DNA of 64,000 nucleotides from Muribaculaceae bacterium. GTDB taxonomy: Bacteria; Bacteroidota; Bacteroidia; Bacteroidales; Muribaculaceae. The translations under genes were made by a program, and so were the position numbers. Shown piece by piece: positions 3,318-11,401 of this stretch; the stretch's first letter is position 1, and each line of letters begins with the position of its first letter. Under the pieces are notes generated by a model that ran no database searches, was not told the DNA's origin, and saw only the letters and a program-made list of their open reading frames with translations. Location of the stretch: assembly GCA_017557425.1 (NCBI GenBank), contig JAFYYU010000006.1, forward strand, positions 1 through 64,000. The letters run 5' to 3'.

Positions 3318-4499
3318 TTAATGCTTGCGGTTGCGCACCGACCTCACCCCGGTATTGACTGTCTGGGTGCTGGTCTTGGGCTTGCGCTCCTTGATCTTGG
3401 TTTTCTTCTCTTTTGCTTTGGTTTTGCTGGACTTGGACGACTTGCTGCTGGACTTGGCACCACGCTTGGTCGTGCGGGTCACCTTTTCGTCGCCACTCTT
3501 GTCGGCGGCATCGCCCTCGACCTGCTCGGCGCCTTCCTCGCCCTCCTCGAGTTCACCCTCGGCTTCGGCGAGAGCTTTCTCTTCGGCCTCGGCACGGGCC
3601 TGAAGCACCTCCAGTGGCGGTACCCACAGGTCCTGGTTGAAGCTGCGCAGGCGCTGCTCGATACTGTCCTGTGCGTGCTTGTAGGCCTCGGCGTCGGGGA
3701 ACAGTTCCTTAAGCGGCTTGTTGCGCAGGTTCTTGGTCTTGATGATCTCGCCGGTGTACATGTTCAACTTGAAGAAGTCGTCGATGCTGTAACGCGGCAG
3801 GTTGTTGTCATCGTCGGTGAAGACATACTGCTGGGCCATATAGGGGCGGATATCATTCAGTTTCACCCAGAACATGGGATAAGGCATGGACTCGCCGGTG
3901 AAGTCGTCGACCTGCACCATCACGGGGCACAGGGCCTCGACGCGGGGCCTCATCTGGTTGCTGCGGGTGTCAAACTCCCACTTCTCGATAATGTAATAGC
4001 ACAGCACCTCGTTGCCGCGGATGTCGGCATCCTCGAACTCATAGAGGGGGTTCTTCTCGGTGCTGCCCTTTGCCTCGGTATAGTAGAGCTGGAAACGGGT
4101 GAACATCTCACCCACATCCTTGATGCGGTACTCCTCGGTGAACATCTCGCGCCCGTCGGGCAGATATTCATAGGCGGCGAGCTGGTTTTTGGCCAGCAGG
4201 CGCATGATGATGAAGTACAGGTTAGCGCCGTCCTCGTTGGGGATCTCAGGGTAGTAGAGCGCAGCGTTCTTTCCCTTGGTCAAGTCGATGGAACGGTAGA
4301 TGACCTTCATCCACTGCAGGTCGGCATCATGGGGCTCCTTGACCTCATAGAAGGACTGCTGGCGGTCGGTGATGGCCACCCCACCCTCTTTCTTGTCCTT
4401 CTTGCGGGCTTCGTCGCCCGAGCGACGCGTCACCTGAGCATTAGTGCCCAGGGCAAGGCCCACGAGCAACAAGGCAATGATCAATCTAAGAGTTTTCAT
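3318..4499 (-). CDS. gldN: T9SS ring component GldN/PorN
   Basis: 393 residues with signal peptide (MKTLRLIIALLLVGLALGTNAQ). GldN is a periplasmic protein that forms the large ring with the lipoprotein GldK under the outer membrane in the type IX secretion system. The central region (about 45-290) has the family pattern, including YEVKEPHDADLQWMKVIYR and YYIIEKWEFD. The last 110 or so residues are low complexity: first Glu/Ala-rich (EARAEAEEKALAEAEGELEE), then Ser/Lys/Thr-rich and strongly basic, ending RNRKH. Such a tail is not part of the core fold. I chose ATG 4499 because the in-frame upstream TTG adds only five residues before a clean signal peptide. It is the last gene of the operon. 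Confidence 0.93.
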   Translation of the reverse strand: MKTLRLIIALLLVGLALGTNAQVTRRSGDEARKKDKKEGGVAITDRQQSFYEVKEPHDADLQWMKVIYRSIDLTKGKNAALYYPEIPNEDGANLYFIIMRLLAKNQLAAYEYLPDGREMFTEEYRIKDVGEMFTRFQLYYTEAKGSTEKNPLYEFEDADIRGNEVLCYYIIEKWEFDTRSNQMRPRVEALCPVMVQVDDFTGESMPYPMFWVKLNDIRPYMAQQYVFTDDDNNLPRYSIDDFFKLNMYTGEIIKTKNLRNKPLKELFPDAEAYKHAQDSIEQRLRSFNQDLWVPPLEVLQARAEAEEKALAEAEGELEEGEEGAEQVEGDAADKSGDEKVTRTTKRGAKSSSKSSKSSKTKAKEKKTKIKERKPKTSTQTVNTGVRSVRNRKH

Positions 4500-4530
4500 A
4501 TTCTTATTGTTCAAGTTTAATCACGATAAA

Positions 4531-6111
4531 TTAATTTACGGTCACATCCATCGACGAGATGGTTCGCGTGATGCCGTCGGGGCCGGTGGCCTTGACGTTG
4601 CGGATCAGGAAGATCTTGCCGCGCTGCAGACCGCGCATGCGGTTCTTCTGGCGCTCCGAGAACTGCGAGCCGTTGGACACCTCGGGAATACCATTGCCCA
4701 TGGCGTCGATGAACACGGTCTCGAACGAGACGACCTTGTAGTCGATGTTCAGCATGTCGTCGTCGATAGCGGCATCCAGGCCCTTGGCGTCCATGAGCAA
4801 GACCTTGGAGAACTTGCCGCCCTTGAAGCGGTTGGGCTGACCGTTAGCGTCCTTATAGGTAATGAAGGGGGACGGGTCGGGCAACTTGCGCACCCTGAAA
4901 GTGGTGCTGCCCACGTTGGTACGCTGGCCGTCCATCTCGGCAGTGACCGAGATGACGCACTCGGCACCCACCTTGGTAGGATGGGCAATCCATCCTTCAC
5001 CGCTCTTGGTGAGCGTTCCGTTGGTCATCGTGGCGCTGATGCTGTTCTGGGGCACACCGGGCACCGCGATGCTGATGGGGTTGTTGATACCGGCATACAG
5101 CACGTTCATCATCGTGGCACTGATGGTGGCCAGCGGGTCGATGACGGTGTAGCTCGACTTGAAGTCACGGCGCGTCACCGTTCCGTCACGTCCCAGCACC
5201 TCGATCCAGCCAGAGTAATCATACTTGCCGGCCTTGCTGGTACCCACCTCATACAGGCCGTTGTTGTTGCCCAAGCGGCTGCCATTGACATAAACAATGG
5301 GGCGTTGGGTGGTGTCGATAGCGGCGAGCACGATCTGAGCGCTATACTTGGTGCCGCGCATGACTATACGGGAGTCAGGCACCACAAAGGCGTTGACCAG
5401 GTTCACGCGCAGGTCGCCCAGGTCAACGTTGGTCAACAACTGGTTGAGCACCTCGCCCTCGGCATAACGCACATCGTTCTGCAGCTTGGTGAGCAGCGTG
5501 ATGGCGGCAATGGTGGGCATGTTGTCAAACATGGTCTCCTCCCAGGTCTTTTTCTGGTCCAGCTGAACGCCGGCAGTCTTGGGGGGAGTTGTCGATAAAG
5601 CGGTTTCCAGGTTCTTGCGCTTCTCGGGATCCTCGAGGAACGAGGTCACATACTGGCGGTACTGGTCGATGCGGGTCTTCAAGGCCTTACCCTTGCCACC
5701 CTGTGCCGAGAGCATGATCACGCTGGCGGCATCCAGGTTGTCACGGTTGCGTATGTTGTTCACATCAGCTTCCTCGCCATCGGCGAATTTGACGATCTCA
5801 AACTTTAGCGAGTCGATATAATTATAGAGCTTGTCGGTCTGTCCGACCACCTCTCCAGCCTTATCCAGCCAGATCTTGCCTTTCTCGGGGTTCTTCTCGT
5901 TGAAAGCCTGGAGTTGGGCATAGAGAGCCTGGTTACGTGCCGTGATGGTGCGGTTGGACCTCGTCAAACCGTCCTGCACCTGACTGAAACCGTTGAGCAC
6001 GTCGCTCGACACGTTCAGGGCAAGCATGGCCGTCAAGACGATGTACATGAGGTTAATCATCTTCTCTCGCGGCGACATGCGGTTGACGCTCTTATTTTTT
6101 GAGGTTGCCAT
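4531..6111 (-). CDS. gldM: T9SS/gliding motor subunit GldM/PorM
   Basis: 526 residues. A short cytoplasmic start, one membrane helix (about 18-38, INLMYIVLTAMLALNVSS) and a long periplasmic region match GldM, the stator/shaft partner of GldL that carries torque to the GldKN ring. The conserved Arg before the helix (SPREKMINLMY, Arg15, equivalent to Arg9 of the Flavobacterium protein) is present. The periplasmic region has beta-rich repeats consistent with the D1-D4 domains. The gap to gldN is 31 bases and to gldL about 65 bases. Confidence 0.95.
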   Translation of the reverse strand: MATSKNKSVNRMSPREKMINLMYIVLTAMLALNVSSDVLNGFSQVQDGLTRSNRTITARNQALYAQLQAFNEKNPEKGKIWLDKAGEVVGQTDKLYNYIDSLKFEIVKFADGEEADVNNIRNRDNLDAASVIMLSAQGGKGKALKTRIDQYRQYVTSFLEDPEKRKNLETALSTTPPKTAGVQLDQKKTWEETMFDNMPTIAAITLLTKLQNDVRYAEGEVLNQLLTNVDLGDLRVNLVNAFVVPDSRIVMRGTKYSAQIVLAAIDTTQRPIVYVNGSRLGNNNGLYEVGTSKAGKYDYSGWIEVLGRDGTVTRRDFKSSYTVIDPLATISATMMNVLYAGINNPISIAVPGVPQNSISATMTNGTLTKSGEGWIAHPTKVGAECVISVTAEMDGQRTNVGSTTFRVRKLPDPSPFITYKDANGQPNRFKGGKFSKVLLMDAKGLDAAIDDDMLNIDYKVVSFETVFIDAMGNGIPEVSNGSQFSERQKNRMRGLQRGKIFLIRNVKATGPDGITRTISSMDVTVN

Positions 6112-6176: not shown

Positions 6177-7163
6177 TCAGGCGTTCTGGTCGTCATTGTC
6201 GGGCTCGATGCCGGGCATGCCGGGCATGGGACGGTACATGTTGACGGTCATCGCCTTGATCATCTTCTCATAGACGCTGTTCAACTGCTTCATGTAACGT
6301 GCCATTTTCTCTGTCTCATCACAGTAGTGGGCACTCTCGGCAGCGCTCTTCTCGTACATGTCGCGGATGTCCTTTAAGCCGCGGTTGACGCGGTCGATGT
6401 TCTCGAGCTGCGACGAGATGCTCTTGAGCTGGATCTCATAAATGGTGTTCAAGCCGCTGATGTTGTGGTTCAGAGCCTGCATCTGGTCCACATAGCCTGT
6501 GGAGCTCTCGGTAATGTTCTGGCTGTTGTCGGTGATGGCACGGTAGCTGCCCAGCAACGTCTCGCTCACCTCGTTCAAGGCAGTGGTCGTAACCTGGAGC
6601 TTCTGCATCTGCTCGCTGATGCCAGCCATCTGGCTCAAGTACTGCTGGGTGGCATCGGTGAGTTCGGCCATGCGTGAGAGCTGGTCACTGGCGGCAGCCA
6701 TCTTGGCGATGCTCTCACTCAGTGATAGTGTATCTTCCTCACTCAGGTTCACACCCTGTGGCAGACCAACGGCGCCCTTAGCCTCTGACGCGCTGATATT
6801 GATATCACCGCCCTCATAGTCCTCGTAGCCTTCACCACCACCTGAACCTCCGATGAAGATACCGCCACCGGTGTTGAAGTCGGGACGATCCTCAGGATCT
6901 TGACTGGCCAACACGGGAAAGACTTCTTCCCAGTGGTACTCCTTCTCGGGTTTATCAAATGCAGTGAGCACAAACATGAGTACCTCGGTACCCATGCCGA
7001 CACTAAGCAGCAAGTTACCCAGCGGCATGTGCAGGATTTTGAACAAGGCACCCAAAATAACGATGGCAGCACCGATACTGTAGGCAAAGTTGAAAAAACG
7101 CTGGCCGCTGTCACTCTTCAGGAACCGGCCTGCTTTCTTTTTATATCTCTTGATTTTACCCAT
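6177..7163 (-). CDS. gldL: T9SS/gliding motor proton channel subunit GldL/PorL
   Basis: 328 residues. The N-terminus has two membrane helices (about 26-45 and 51-70) with the family's functional residues: Tyr28, Lys42 and His45 in FKILHMP, and Glu60 in GMGTEVLMF. These align with Tyr13, Lys27, His30 and Glu49 of Flavobacterium GldL, which form the proton path. A long cytoplasmic C-terminal region follows, rich in Gln/Ser and heptad-like segments, longer than in Flavobacterium but similar to Porphyromonas PorL. GldL pentamers surround the GldM dimer in the inner membrane. Confidence 0.95.
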   Translation of the reverse strand: MGKIKRYKKKAGRFLKSDSGQRFFNFAYSIGAAIVILGALFKILHMPLGNLLLSVGMGTEVLMFVLTAFDKPEKEYHWEEVFPVLASQDPEDRPDFNTGGGIFIGGSGGGEGYEDYEGGDINISASEAKGAVGLPQGVNLSEEDTLSLSESIAKMAAASDQLSRMAELTDATQQYLSQMAGISEQMQKLQVTTTALNEVSETLLGSYRAITDNSQNITESSTGYVDQMQALNHNISGLNTIYEIQLKSISSQLENIDRVNRGLKDIRDMYEKSAAESAHYCDETEKMARYMKQLNSVYEKMIKAMTVNMYRPMPGMPGIEPDNDDQNA

Positions 7164-7227
7164 TGTTGCTTGAACTATAAATAATGAGTGTGATGATTTG
7201 TTTTTTCTCAGTTATGTTGTTTTCGTG

Positions 7228-7413
7228 TCAATGATTGTCCTCCATAGTTCGGTTAACAGCTTCGAACAAGAACATGAGCACTCCGGCTATCATAGCAATC
7301 CAAAGCAGGTAGTTACCTACTGGGATGTGTAAGATCTTGAAAACGACACCCAAGATCAGGAATGCTGCAATAATACAGAGGATTATTATTCTATATTTCT
7401 TGACGATGTTCAT
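7228..7413 (-). CDS. Small GldL-like membrane protein lacking the catalytic Glu
   Basis: 61 residues: two membrane helices and almost nothing else. It lines up with residues 28-72 of the neighbouring GldL: ILGVVFKILHIPVGNYLL against ILGALFKILHMPLGNLLL, then VLMF in both. Lys26 and His29 are kept. The position of GldL Glu60 is Gly44 and that of Tyr28 is Cys12. A different acidic residue, Glu51, lies two helical turns further on. It sits between gldK and gldL (gaps 53 and 64 bases), so it should be co-transcribed with the motor. It is likely a tandem duplicate of the GldL membrane domain; the function is unknown, possibly a modifier of the stator ring. Confidence 0.85.
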   Translation of the reverse strand: MNIVKKYRIIILCIIAAFLILGVVFKILHIPVGNYLLWIAMIAGVLMFLFEAVNRTMEDNH

Positions 7414-7466
7414 TGTTGTTTGAACTGAAAGAGTAAGATGACTTATTTTCTTAAACTAAGCGCCAA

Positions 7467-8909
7467 TCAGTCTTTGCAGCAGTTTTTGCGCTTACCCTTG
7501 ACGATACCCACCTTGGAGCGCACACAGCGGAAGCCGATGTAACTCCTCTGCTCGTTCTGGTACTCCCACATGCGCAGGTCGGCACGGATGTTGTGAACCA
7601 CGTCCTTCCAGGAACCGCCACGCACGATCTTGCGCGACATCTTGTAGGGATCCTCCTGTGCCACATAATAGCGGTACTCGGGATTGATATCGTCGGTCAT
7701 GCGGTCAATGCTCTCGGTATAGGCGGTAGATGTCCACTCGCTCACGTTACCGGCCATGTCATACAGGCCGTAGTCGTTGGGCTCATAGGTGCCCACAGGA
7801 GCCGAGATGATGTAACCGTCCTTGACGTAGTTACCCTCGTCGGGCTTGAAGTTTGCGTAGAAACAACCCTCGTCCACAGTCAGCGGCAGATCGCCGTCCC
7901 ACGGGTACTTGTTCTTGTTCTTGCCGGCACGGGCGGCAAACTCCCACTCAGCCTCGGTCGGCAATCTGAAAGGCTCCACATAGACACCCTGGTTGCCCAG
8001 CGATTTCTTCAGGAAGTCGGTGCGCCAGTTGCAGAAGGCGTTGGCCTGCTCCCAGCTCACCCCGACGACGGGATAGTTGTTGTAGTTACCGTTGGCGAAG
8101 TACATGCGTACATACGGCTCCTGATAAGCGTTCTCGAAATCATTCACCCAGCAAGTGGTGTCAGGGTAAATGTTGACGATGTAGGTGTTCAGGAAGTCAT
8201 AGTCACTCTGCAAGGCACGCGTGATGGTCTGGCGCACGATGCGACCCTCGTCATCGATATAGGCGGTATCCTTGCTGATGGTGGGCGGGGTCATGTCAAC
8301 ATCATGGTCGGTGTTATAGTCACGACGCGTGGGGTCGAAACGGTGCTTGCGCTTGGCAGCCTCGGTGAGGTTATAAACCTCGTAACGGTAATTCATTTGA
8401 GAGGCGTCAAGCTCTTTCACGCCCGTGATGGGGTTAATGCGGTAGACGCTGTTGATCGCACGTTCCTCGTCCTCACTGGGGTTCTTCCAGGGGATATTCT
8501 TACTCCAATCGAGGTGGGGGGTGACGGGGTTGCCCTCCTTATCCTCCTCGATCTTGAACTCCTCGTTACCGCCATAGGCGGGGTCGGCAAGGCGCTCGCG
8601 GATAATCGAGTCACGCACCCAATATACGAACTGCTTGTACTTGGAATTGCTCACCTCCATTTCATCCATCCAGAAGGCATCTACCGAGATGCCATGGGCC
8701 GTAGAATCGATTCCCCAGATGGAGTCTCTCTCGGCCGGTCCTTCACGCATCGAGCCAACGTCAACGAGCACCATGCCAAACGGCGTAGTCTCGTTAAACG
8801 AGGTACCACCAACACCGGTTACCTCACCGCCGCTGGTGCCTCCCTTGCGCATGGAACCGCACGACACGGTCGCCACAGCGACCAACAGTATCAATACTAG
8901 TTTCTTCAT
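7467..8909 (-). CDS. gldK: T9SS ring lipoprotein GldK/PorK
   Basis: 480 residues, lipoprotein signal with Cys17 (VATVSCGS). The mature part is a formylglycine-generating-enzyme/sulfatase-modifying fold, seen in RLPTEAEWEFAARAGKN, GLYDMAGNVSEWTST, and VRGGSWKDVVHNIRADLRM followed by IGFRCVRSK. In the T9SS this fold is structural, not enzymatic: GldK anchors the GldKN ring to the outer membrane. The gap to porP is 3 bases, indicating tight coupling. Confidence 0.94.
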   Translation of the reverse strand: MKKLVLILLVAVATVSCGSMRKGGTSGGEVTGVGGTSFNETTPFGMVLVDVGSMREGPAERDSIWGIDSTAHGISVDAFWMDEMEVSNSKYKQFVYWVRDSIIRERLADPAYGGNEEFKIEEDKEGNPVTPHLDWSKNIPWKNPSEDEERAINSVYRINPITGVKELDASQMNYRYEVYNLTEAAKRKHRFDPTRRDYNTDHDVDMTPPTISKDTAYIDDEGRIVRQTITRALQSDYDFLNTYIVNIYPDTTCWVNDFENAYQEPYVRMYFANGNYNNYPVVGVSWEQANAFCNWRTDFLKKSLGNQGVYVEPFRLPTEAEWEFAARAGKNKNKYPWDGDLPLTVDEGCFYANFKPDEGNYVKDGYIISAPVGTYEPNDYGLYDMAGNVSEWTSTAYTESIDRMTDDINPEYRYYVAQEDPYKMSRKIVRGGSWKDVVHNIRADLRMWEYQNEQRSYIGFRCVRSKVGIVKGKRKNCCKD

Positions 8910-10951: not shown

Positions 10952-11401
10952 ATGAGCTATACCCATCTCGTATATCATATCGTGTTTCGCACCCATCACA
11001 GCATACCGGCTCTCGATGAGAAGCATGAACGTGAGCTATATGCCTATATTCATGGTTATACCATGCGCCATAAGGCTAAACTCTACCGCATAGGCGGTAT
11101 GCCCGATCACATCCACATGCTCGTGTCAATACCTCCTACAATCTCGGTATCAGAGTTTGTGCGTGGATTGAAATTTGCATCCAGCAGCTGGCTGAAACAA
11201 AACCCTTCATTTCCTCTGTTTTCTGGTTGGGGAGAAGGATATGCCGCCTTCACCTATTCCCGTGATCAGATTCCAGTTGTGAAGCAGTACATCATCAATC
11301 AGAAGGAACATCATCACAAGACAACCTTTGCCGAGGAATACCGGCAATTTATTATCGAGAATGGAGAAGAAATCGACGAGACCTATTTCTTGAAAGATTG
11401 A
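10952..11401 (+). CDS. REP-associated tyrosine transposase (Y1, IS200-like)
   Basis: 149 residues of the Y1 transposase family (HUH endonuclease). The HxH metal motif is His53/His55 in MPDHIHMLVS. The single nucleophile tyrosine is Tyr113 in VKQYIINQKEHH with Gln117 a turn later. The family start MSYTHLVYHIVF and the GWGEGYAAFTYS block are intact, so the gene looks functional. Such enzymes cut and rejoin single-stranded DNA at hairpins; RAYTs act on REP sequences and usually do not move as full insertion sequences. It lies between the T9SS operon and an acyltransferase gene, away from other mobile genes. Confidence 0.92.
   Translation: MSYTHLVYHIVFRTHHSIPALDEKHERELYAYIHGYTMRHKAKLYRIGGMPDHIHMLVSIPPTISVSEFVRGLKFASSSWLKQNPSFPLFSGWGEGYAAFTYSRDQIPVVKQYIINQKEHHHKTTFAEEYRQFIIENGEEIDETYFLKD

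Follow-up and report, generated by a model that had tools for sequence, protein, structure and literature searches.

A shortened gldL duplicate without the motor glutamate in the T9SS gene cluster of a Muribaculaceae genome

The T9SS gene cluster of a Muribaculaceae metagenome-assembled genome contains what appears to be a rare, lineage-specific duplicate of gldL, here called mini-GldL, inserted between gldK and gldL. It was found in the window, the 64,000-nucleotide stretch of contig JAFYYU010000006.1 (assembly GCA_017557425.1) that we analysed, and is predicted to encode a 61-residue, two-helix membrane hairpin of the GldL_N type in which Gly44 takes the place of the motor Glu. We tentatively prefer to read mini-GldL as a retained small membrane protein that would pack like GldL but take no part in the proton step. 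Our confidence in this reading, in which we infer the action on the motor, is somewhat below even.

Genomic context, family assignment and predicted fold

Genes on the minus strand of the window followed the order porT, porP, gldK, mini-GldL, gldL, gldM, gldN. The mini-GldL ORF (7228-7413, minus strand) had 61 codons from ATG to TGA, started 53 bases past the gldK stop and ended 64 bases ahead of the gldL ATG. The flanking genes, encoding the ring lipoprotein GldK (7467-8909, minus; TIGR03525, 509.9 bits, cut-off 350) and the full-length motor protein GldL (6177-7163, minus; TIGR03513, 207.3 bits, cut-off 68.3), were both above their family cut-offs, and the 61-codon ORF that a sequence-only reading had placed between them is real. 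They were followed by the genes for the motor axle GldM (4531-6111, minus; TIGR03517, 559.7 bits, cut-off 180) and the ring subunit GldN (3318-4514, minus; TIGR03523, 187.2 bits, cut-off 85.9). Directly upstream of the T9SS genes, an ORF at 10952-11401 resembled an IS200/REP-type transposase by eye.

Profile search matched mini-GldL to Pfam GldL_N (PF22827) at 40.3 bits (cut-off 24, E 3.7e-10), so that its likeness to GldL survived the profile alignment that had been set beforehand as a check. The match to NCBIfam TIGR03513 reached 36 bits, under the cut-off of 68.3 for this whole-protein equivalog model. The best sequence match among solved structures was PorL (7sat, E 5.1e-6), and mini-GldL and gldL were the only GldL_N matches in the source genome. 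The predicted structure consisted of helices at residues 2-27 and 31-60, with a mean pLDDT of 78.6. Foldseek searches with this predicted fold returned no match at E <= 0.001, and the nearest solved folds were GldL/PorL chains (E 0.56-3.5, probability 0.41-0.96). We regard mini-GldL as a true GldL homologue whose likeness, judged from the sequence, is beyond chance.

Comparison with full-length GldL

We aligned mini-GldL with 107 distinct GldLs drawn from genomes of its genus and family. Residues 13-61 matched residues 29-77 of the neighbouring GldL without gaps, at 47% amino-acid and 62% DNA identity. The N-terminal ends of the two proteins also corresponded (MNIVKKYR in mini-GldL, MGKIKRYK in GldL), with 16 N-terminal GldL residues deleted in frame in mini-GldL. 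The mini-GldL stop codon (TGA) fell on a conserved GldL Trp codon (TGG), and with the ORF ending at this position the cytoplasmic domain that follows TM2 in GldL was absent.

The FKILH.P.GN core was complete in mini-GldL (8/8), and the Lys and His of FKILH, correctly called as kept in the sequence-only reading, are Lys26 and His29. The alignment likewise agreed that the essential Glu of GldL is Gly44; this TM2 Glu was present in 107/107 distinct GldLs. The second acidic position, the counterpart of Flavobacterium johnsoniae E59, was Asp in 105/107 and Glu in 2/107 GldLs and is Asn54 in mini-GldL. Glu51, to which attention had been drawn as well, is present. The statement that the conserved Tyr had become Cys12 was a misreading: the Tyr, invariant in 107/107 distinct GldLs, stands opposite Leu12 in the alignment, and the Cys is residue 13, in place of a Ser that was also invariant in 107/107. 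The overall description of a stand-alone GldL hairpin lacking the Glu and sited between gldK and gldL was borne out by the ORF, the GldL_N match and Gly44.

For F. johnsoniae GldL, the TM2 Glu, E49, is reported as strictly conserved and essential for secretion, and E59 as essential for SprB movement (PMC8986121). Secretion is reported to be lowered by the GldL substitutions Y13A and K27A (PMC9127263). We equated Glu60 of the window GldL with E49 through alignment to the family profile and PorL and not by motif counting, because the Flavobacterium spacing differs in the published numbering. Mini-GldL is like GldL/PorL in its two-helix hairpin, FKILH.P.GN core, gldKLMN location and nearest solved folds, but it differs in lacking the TM2 Glu, the second acidic residue and the cytoplasmic domain, in the loss of the Tyr and several Gly residues, in its 16-residue deletion and in scoring under the equivalog cut-off.

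Distribution

Mini-GldL occurred in 1/101 genomes of the genus, the window's own, and in 1/397 genomes of the family at E up to 2e-10, a limit at which a weaker relative would be missed. Among the matches listed, the 100 other genus genomes held no second copy of mini-GldL, and the search recovered gldL itself, with E no higher than 1e-5, in 99/100 of them; we treated the weak hits (E >= 0.012), some of them in short frames, as chance similarity. In the order search (393 genomes) the 392 other genomes gave no mini-GldL at E up to 1e-5, and all other matches sat in gldL-sized frames of 220-401 residues. The genus, family and order draws of genomes overlap. Scans of genome and viral contigs, using patterns that reach close relatives only, yielded no tblastn-confirmed relative. 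An 89-residue frame in one further genome (G177) was taken as a cut gldL, as it lay at the edge of a contig and adjoined DNA of the kind found upstream of gldL.

The source genome is estimated as 85% complete and 4.5% contaminated. A chimera is disfavoured because the neighbouring genes are intact and syntenic, and mini-GldL is no assembly repeat because the copy is only 62% identical in DNA. The sequence-only reading had named absence from close relatives as a refuting condition, and by this measure mini-GldL is not a conserved part of the operon; we rejected that view on the genus and family counts and on the short gaps between gldK and gldL in relatives.

Origin by partial tandem duplication

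The gap between gldK and gldL was 303 bases in the window. It was 1-149 bases at 79 loci in relatives (80 gldL loci minus L113, which begins inside gldL), counting up to the gldL residue where the match began, and -11 to 94 bases at another 71 loci, some of which lay in genomes already represented. The middle part of the 303-base gap matched gldL coding DNA, and bases 246-303, the 58 bases adjoining gldL, matched relatives (91% in G217). The intergenic stretch from gldK to mini-GldL (7414-7466, minus) resembled a gldK-gldL intergenic region. Together with the first 36 bases of mini-GldL, it aligned to the upstream region and start of the window's own gldL with a local alignment score of 24, compared with a mean of 9 and a maximum of 14 in 200 base shuffles. 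The long gap, its gldL-like middle and this upstream score argue for a partial tandem duplication. Descent of mini-GldL from a duplicate of the 5' end of gldL and the DNA upstream of it is well supported by these comparisons, and the term paralogue used in the sequence-only reading was apt.

Upstream alignments scoring at least 18 were found at 24/79 loci, all within L063-L096, the main clade around the source species, and some members of L063-L096 scored only 12-16. An origin outside the genus clade is not favoured, given that these 24 best upstream alignments all fell within it. A recent copy of the resident gldL is not favoured either. In a placement tree of the 107 distinct GldLs (fast search), placing mini-GldL as sister of the window gldL was 8.5 lnL below the best branch (rank 101/211), and with GC 0.40 on the mini-GldL branch this placement was 7.1 lnL worse (rank 53). 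Even with omega at 1, the mini-GldL branch was 1.3-1.8 neutral substitutions per codon long, and the terminal branch of the window gldL was shorter (0.8-0.96). This branch length and the disfavoured sister placement suggest that the copy is older than the split of the species from its sampled relatives, or has evolved faster, or has moved within the genus.

The gldL-proximal part of the stretch between mini-GldL and gldL (7164-7227, minus) was common to relatives. Its bases 7164-7221 were conserved in the close relatives L063-L096, roughly as ATCATCACACTCA..TTTT..ATAGTTCAAGCAACA, and had no Rfam match. With the intergenic region and start context now present twice, and 64 bases separating mini-GldL from gldL, the extra start and short ORF might serve as a leader or spacing element that tunes gldL translation through coupling or stoichiometry, the peptide being incidental. 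We consider this improbable: the mini-GldL/gldL region contained neither a terminator-like site nor an Rfam match, and the helix hydrophobicity and hairpin motif of the product were non-random, which is unexpected for an incidental peptide.

Selection versus drift

Codon models. Omega (dN/dS) of the mini-GldL branch was below 1 in all models tried (0.17-0.57). It was 0.20-0.26 with 38 GldLs, an analysis that did not in effect optimise where on each branch mini-GldL attaches, and 0.23-0.28 with 107, with 2dlnL against an omega of 1 of 6.5-9.5. With GC 0.40 on the mini-GldL branch, the best-fitting composition tried, omega was 0.36-0.48 and 2dlnL against 1 was 3.0-6.3; with GC 0.30, 2dlnL was 1.6-2.4. 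The codon evidence for purifying selection is moderate because allowing mini-GldL its own base composition raises omega and lowers 2dlnL. Constraint on the mini-GldL branch was far weaker than on the gldL background (omega 0.035-0.037). Forcing the background omega on mini-GldL cost 5.8 to 6.8 lnL at GC 0.40; it was rejected under uniform-GC models and was not rejected under stationary composition or mini-GldL's own F3x4 frequencies. Differences from gldL numbered 21 at codon position 1, 9 at position 2 and 26 at position 3, where some arose in gldL, and the comparison of positions 1 and 2 alone gave p 0.043.

Neutral simulations. Simulated to equal divergence without selection, the helices gained about 5-6 polar residues on average; the observed number was 0 (P <= 0.0017). 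Helices were set at residues 13-25 and 35-50 in this main simulation, limits that were the analyst's choice, and other limits gave P values from 0.0027 to 0.039, with some at 0.017-0.039. An FKILH.P.GN core intact at 8/8 positions was similarly rare (P <= 0.0003). Total amino-acid identity exceeded drift only at P 0.013-0.092. The identity was concentrated in residues 20-37 (13/18, versus 10/31 elsewhere; p 0.009), and outside these residues it was at the drift level. The open frame is not telling, because 27-45% of the neutral simulations were also free of stops across the 49 codons. The Glu was lost in 70% of neutral simulations run to the divergence of mini-GldL. By itself this loss says little for a special role, because drift produces it this often and 19/20 non-GldL hairpins (see below) lack it too.

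Helix hydrophobicity and the core stood out against neutral simulations, and the codon tests were only moderately favourable to purifying selection. The evidence moderately supports that mini-GldL was maintained as a membrane hairpin, and the non-neutral retention of the hairpin supports a function at some time. The main rival explanation is that mini-GldL is a relic, a duplicated 5' end of gldL that drifts without function and is open because it is short. We judge a relic rather unlikely, if not lightly dismissed. Its absence from the 100 other genus genomes searched, the relaxation of the mini-GldL branch relative to gldL, the drift-level divergence at both ends of the peptide and the ease with which 49 codons stay free of stops under drift are all in keeping with a relic, but polar-free helices and an intact FKILH.P.GN core were rare in the simulations, the 49 codons carry no indel at 62% DNA identity, and differences were fewest at codon position 2. 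A relic would make mini-GldL a caution against inferring function from an ORF in a single genome.

A possible non-conducting partner of the motor

Our preferred reading of mini-GldL as a retained membrane protein starts from the duplication that the sequence shows: within the genus clade, the first ~77 codons of gldL and the region upstream of them were copied in tandem, which placed a second, shortened gldL start between gldK and gldL. The duplicate lost 16 residues in frame, ends at the Trp codon and diverged to its present identity. The peptide may be translated from the gldL-like start in the same operon, insert as a helical hairpin and pack against GldL or GldM helices. With no TM2 Glu, second acidic position or cytoplasmic domain, it would be expected to contribute neither a proton step nor cytoplasmic joining. 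Such a non-conducting partner could occupy assembly sites and slow or limit ring formation, or it could stabilise part of the complex. The sequence-only reading had proposed a brake, an assembly factor or a spacer in a mixed ring as candidate roles. We count against the retained partner its occurrence in a single MAG, the moderate codon tests and the drift-level identity outside the core. It is doubtful, and we would put little weight on it, that a native non-conducting subunit becomes part of the GldL ring, or caps it, and governs the number of motors, their torque or the rate of secretion in the manner of a clutch. Binding to either GldL or GldM would make mini-GldL a naturally occurring dominant modulator of the 5:2 rotary motor and a tool for separating assembly from proton flow.

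Duplicated T9SS core genes kept in the gld system are reported for F. johnsoniae, where GldO and GldJ are paralogues of GldN and GldK and a partial redundancy of GldO with GldN is described (PMC9127263, PMC10202324). These are similar to mini-GldL as retained duplicates but derive from other subunits than its parent. Among the matches listed from the open-licence literature, no title concerned a short GldL paralogue.

Other GldL_N-type hairpins in Bacteroidia

We searched 129 genomes of the class with the GldL_N profile and read 19 fetched loci among the matches listed. GldL-type proteins with the Glu accounted for 7/19. At the 12 other loci we picked 20 hairpins by eye, 19 of which lacked the Glu. 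The sole exception was the 64-residue L158 protein (L158:3937-4065, minus), a stand-alone hairpin that adjoins an ORF resembling a SulP permease by eye. One or two FKI.HWPGA hairpins of the GldL_N type, without the Glu, were present at L163, L165-L173 and L180. The L170 and L171 proteins had an extra N-terminal domain and a long tail, and GldL_N was the sole match above a curated cut-off in the three proteins scanned (L163, L165 and L173). To our knowledge no function is known for FKI.HWPGA hairpin proteins.

FKI.HWPGA proteins (for example L163, L166, L167, L170 and L173) share the hairpin core and the missing Glu with mini-GldL but have an HWPGA turn, and often two hairpins, in place of its GldL-like HIPVGN turn. 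The stand-alone, Glu-less 58-residue L163 protein had no gldK, gldM, gldN, porP or porT match within ~10 kb. The same hairpin core is thus found in non-gld proteins, as judged from this one checked neighbourhood, so the core does not imply docking to GldLM. A Glu-less hairpin is, from these comparisons, not new, and what appears unusual in mini-GldL is descent from gldL and a place in the motor operon.

Mini-GldL could instead be a generic small hairpin that works like these non-motor proteins, outside the T9SS motor. Glu-less FK..H hairpins are common elsewhere, one of them (L163) stands alone away from gld genes, and the part of mini-GldL that was retained is the core common to such proteins. 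We nevertheless find this explanation unlikely, as mini-GldL sits in the motor operon behind a gldL-like start region and its FKILHIPVGN turn is GldL-like, unlike FKI.HWPGA. Even a generic hairpin would illustrate one route to Glu-less GldL_N proteins, in which a motor gene is partially duplicated and the motor residues are then lost.

The searches also turned up second GldL-type proteins in another genus of the family, in frames of 178-179 residues beside a longer GldL (G023, locus L178; G125; G138); the Glu was present in the L178 protein, the one of the three that was read. One locus (L139), from a record titled Pseudoflavonifractor sp., contained a gldL 75% identical to the window gldL and probably carries a wrong title or comes from a mixed bin.
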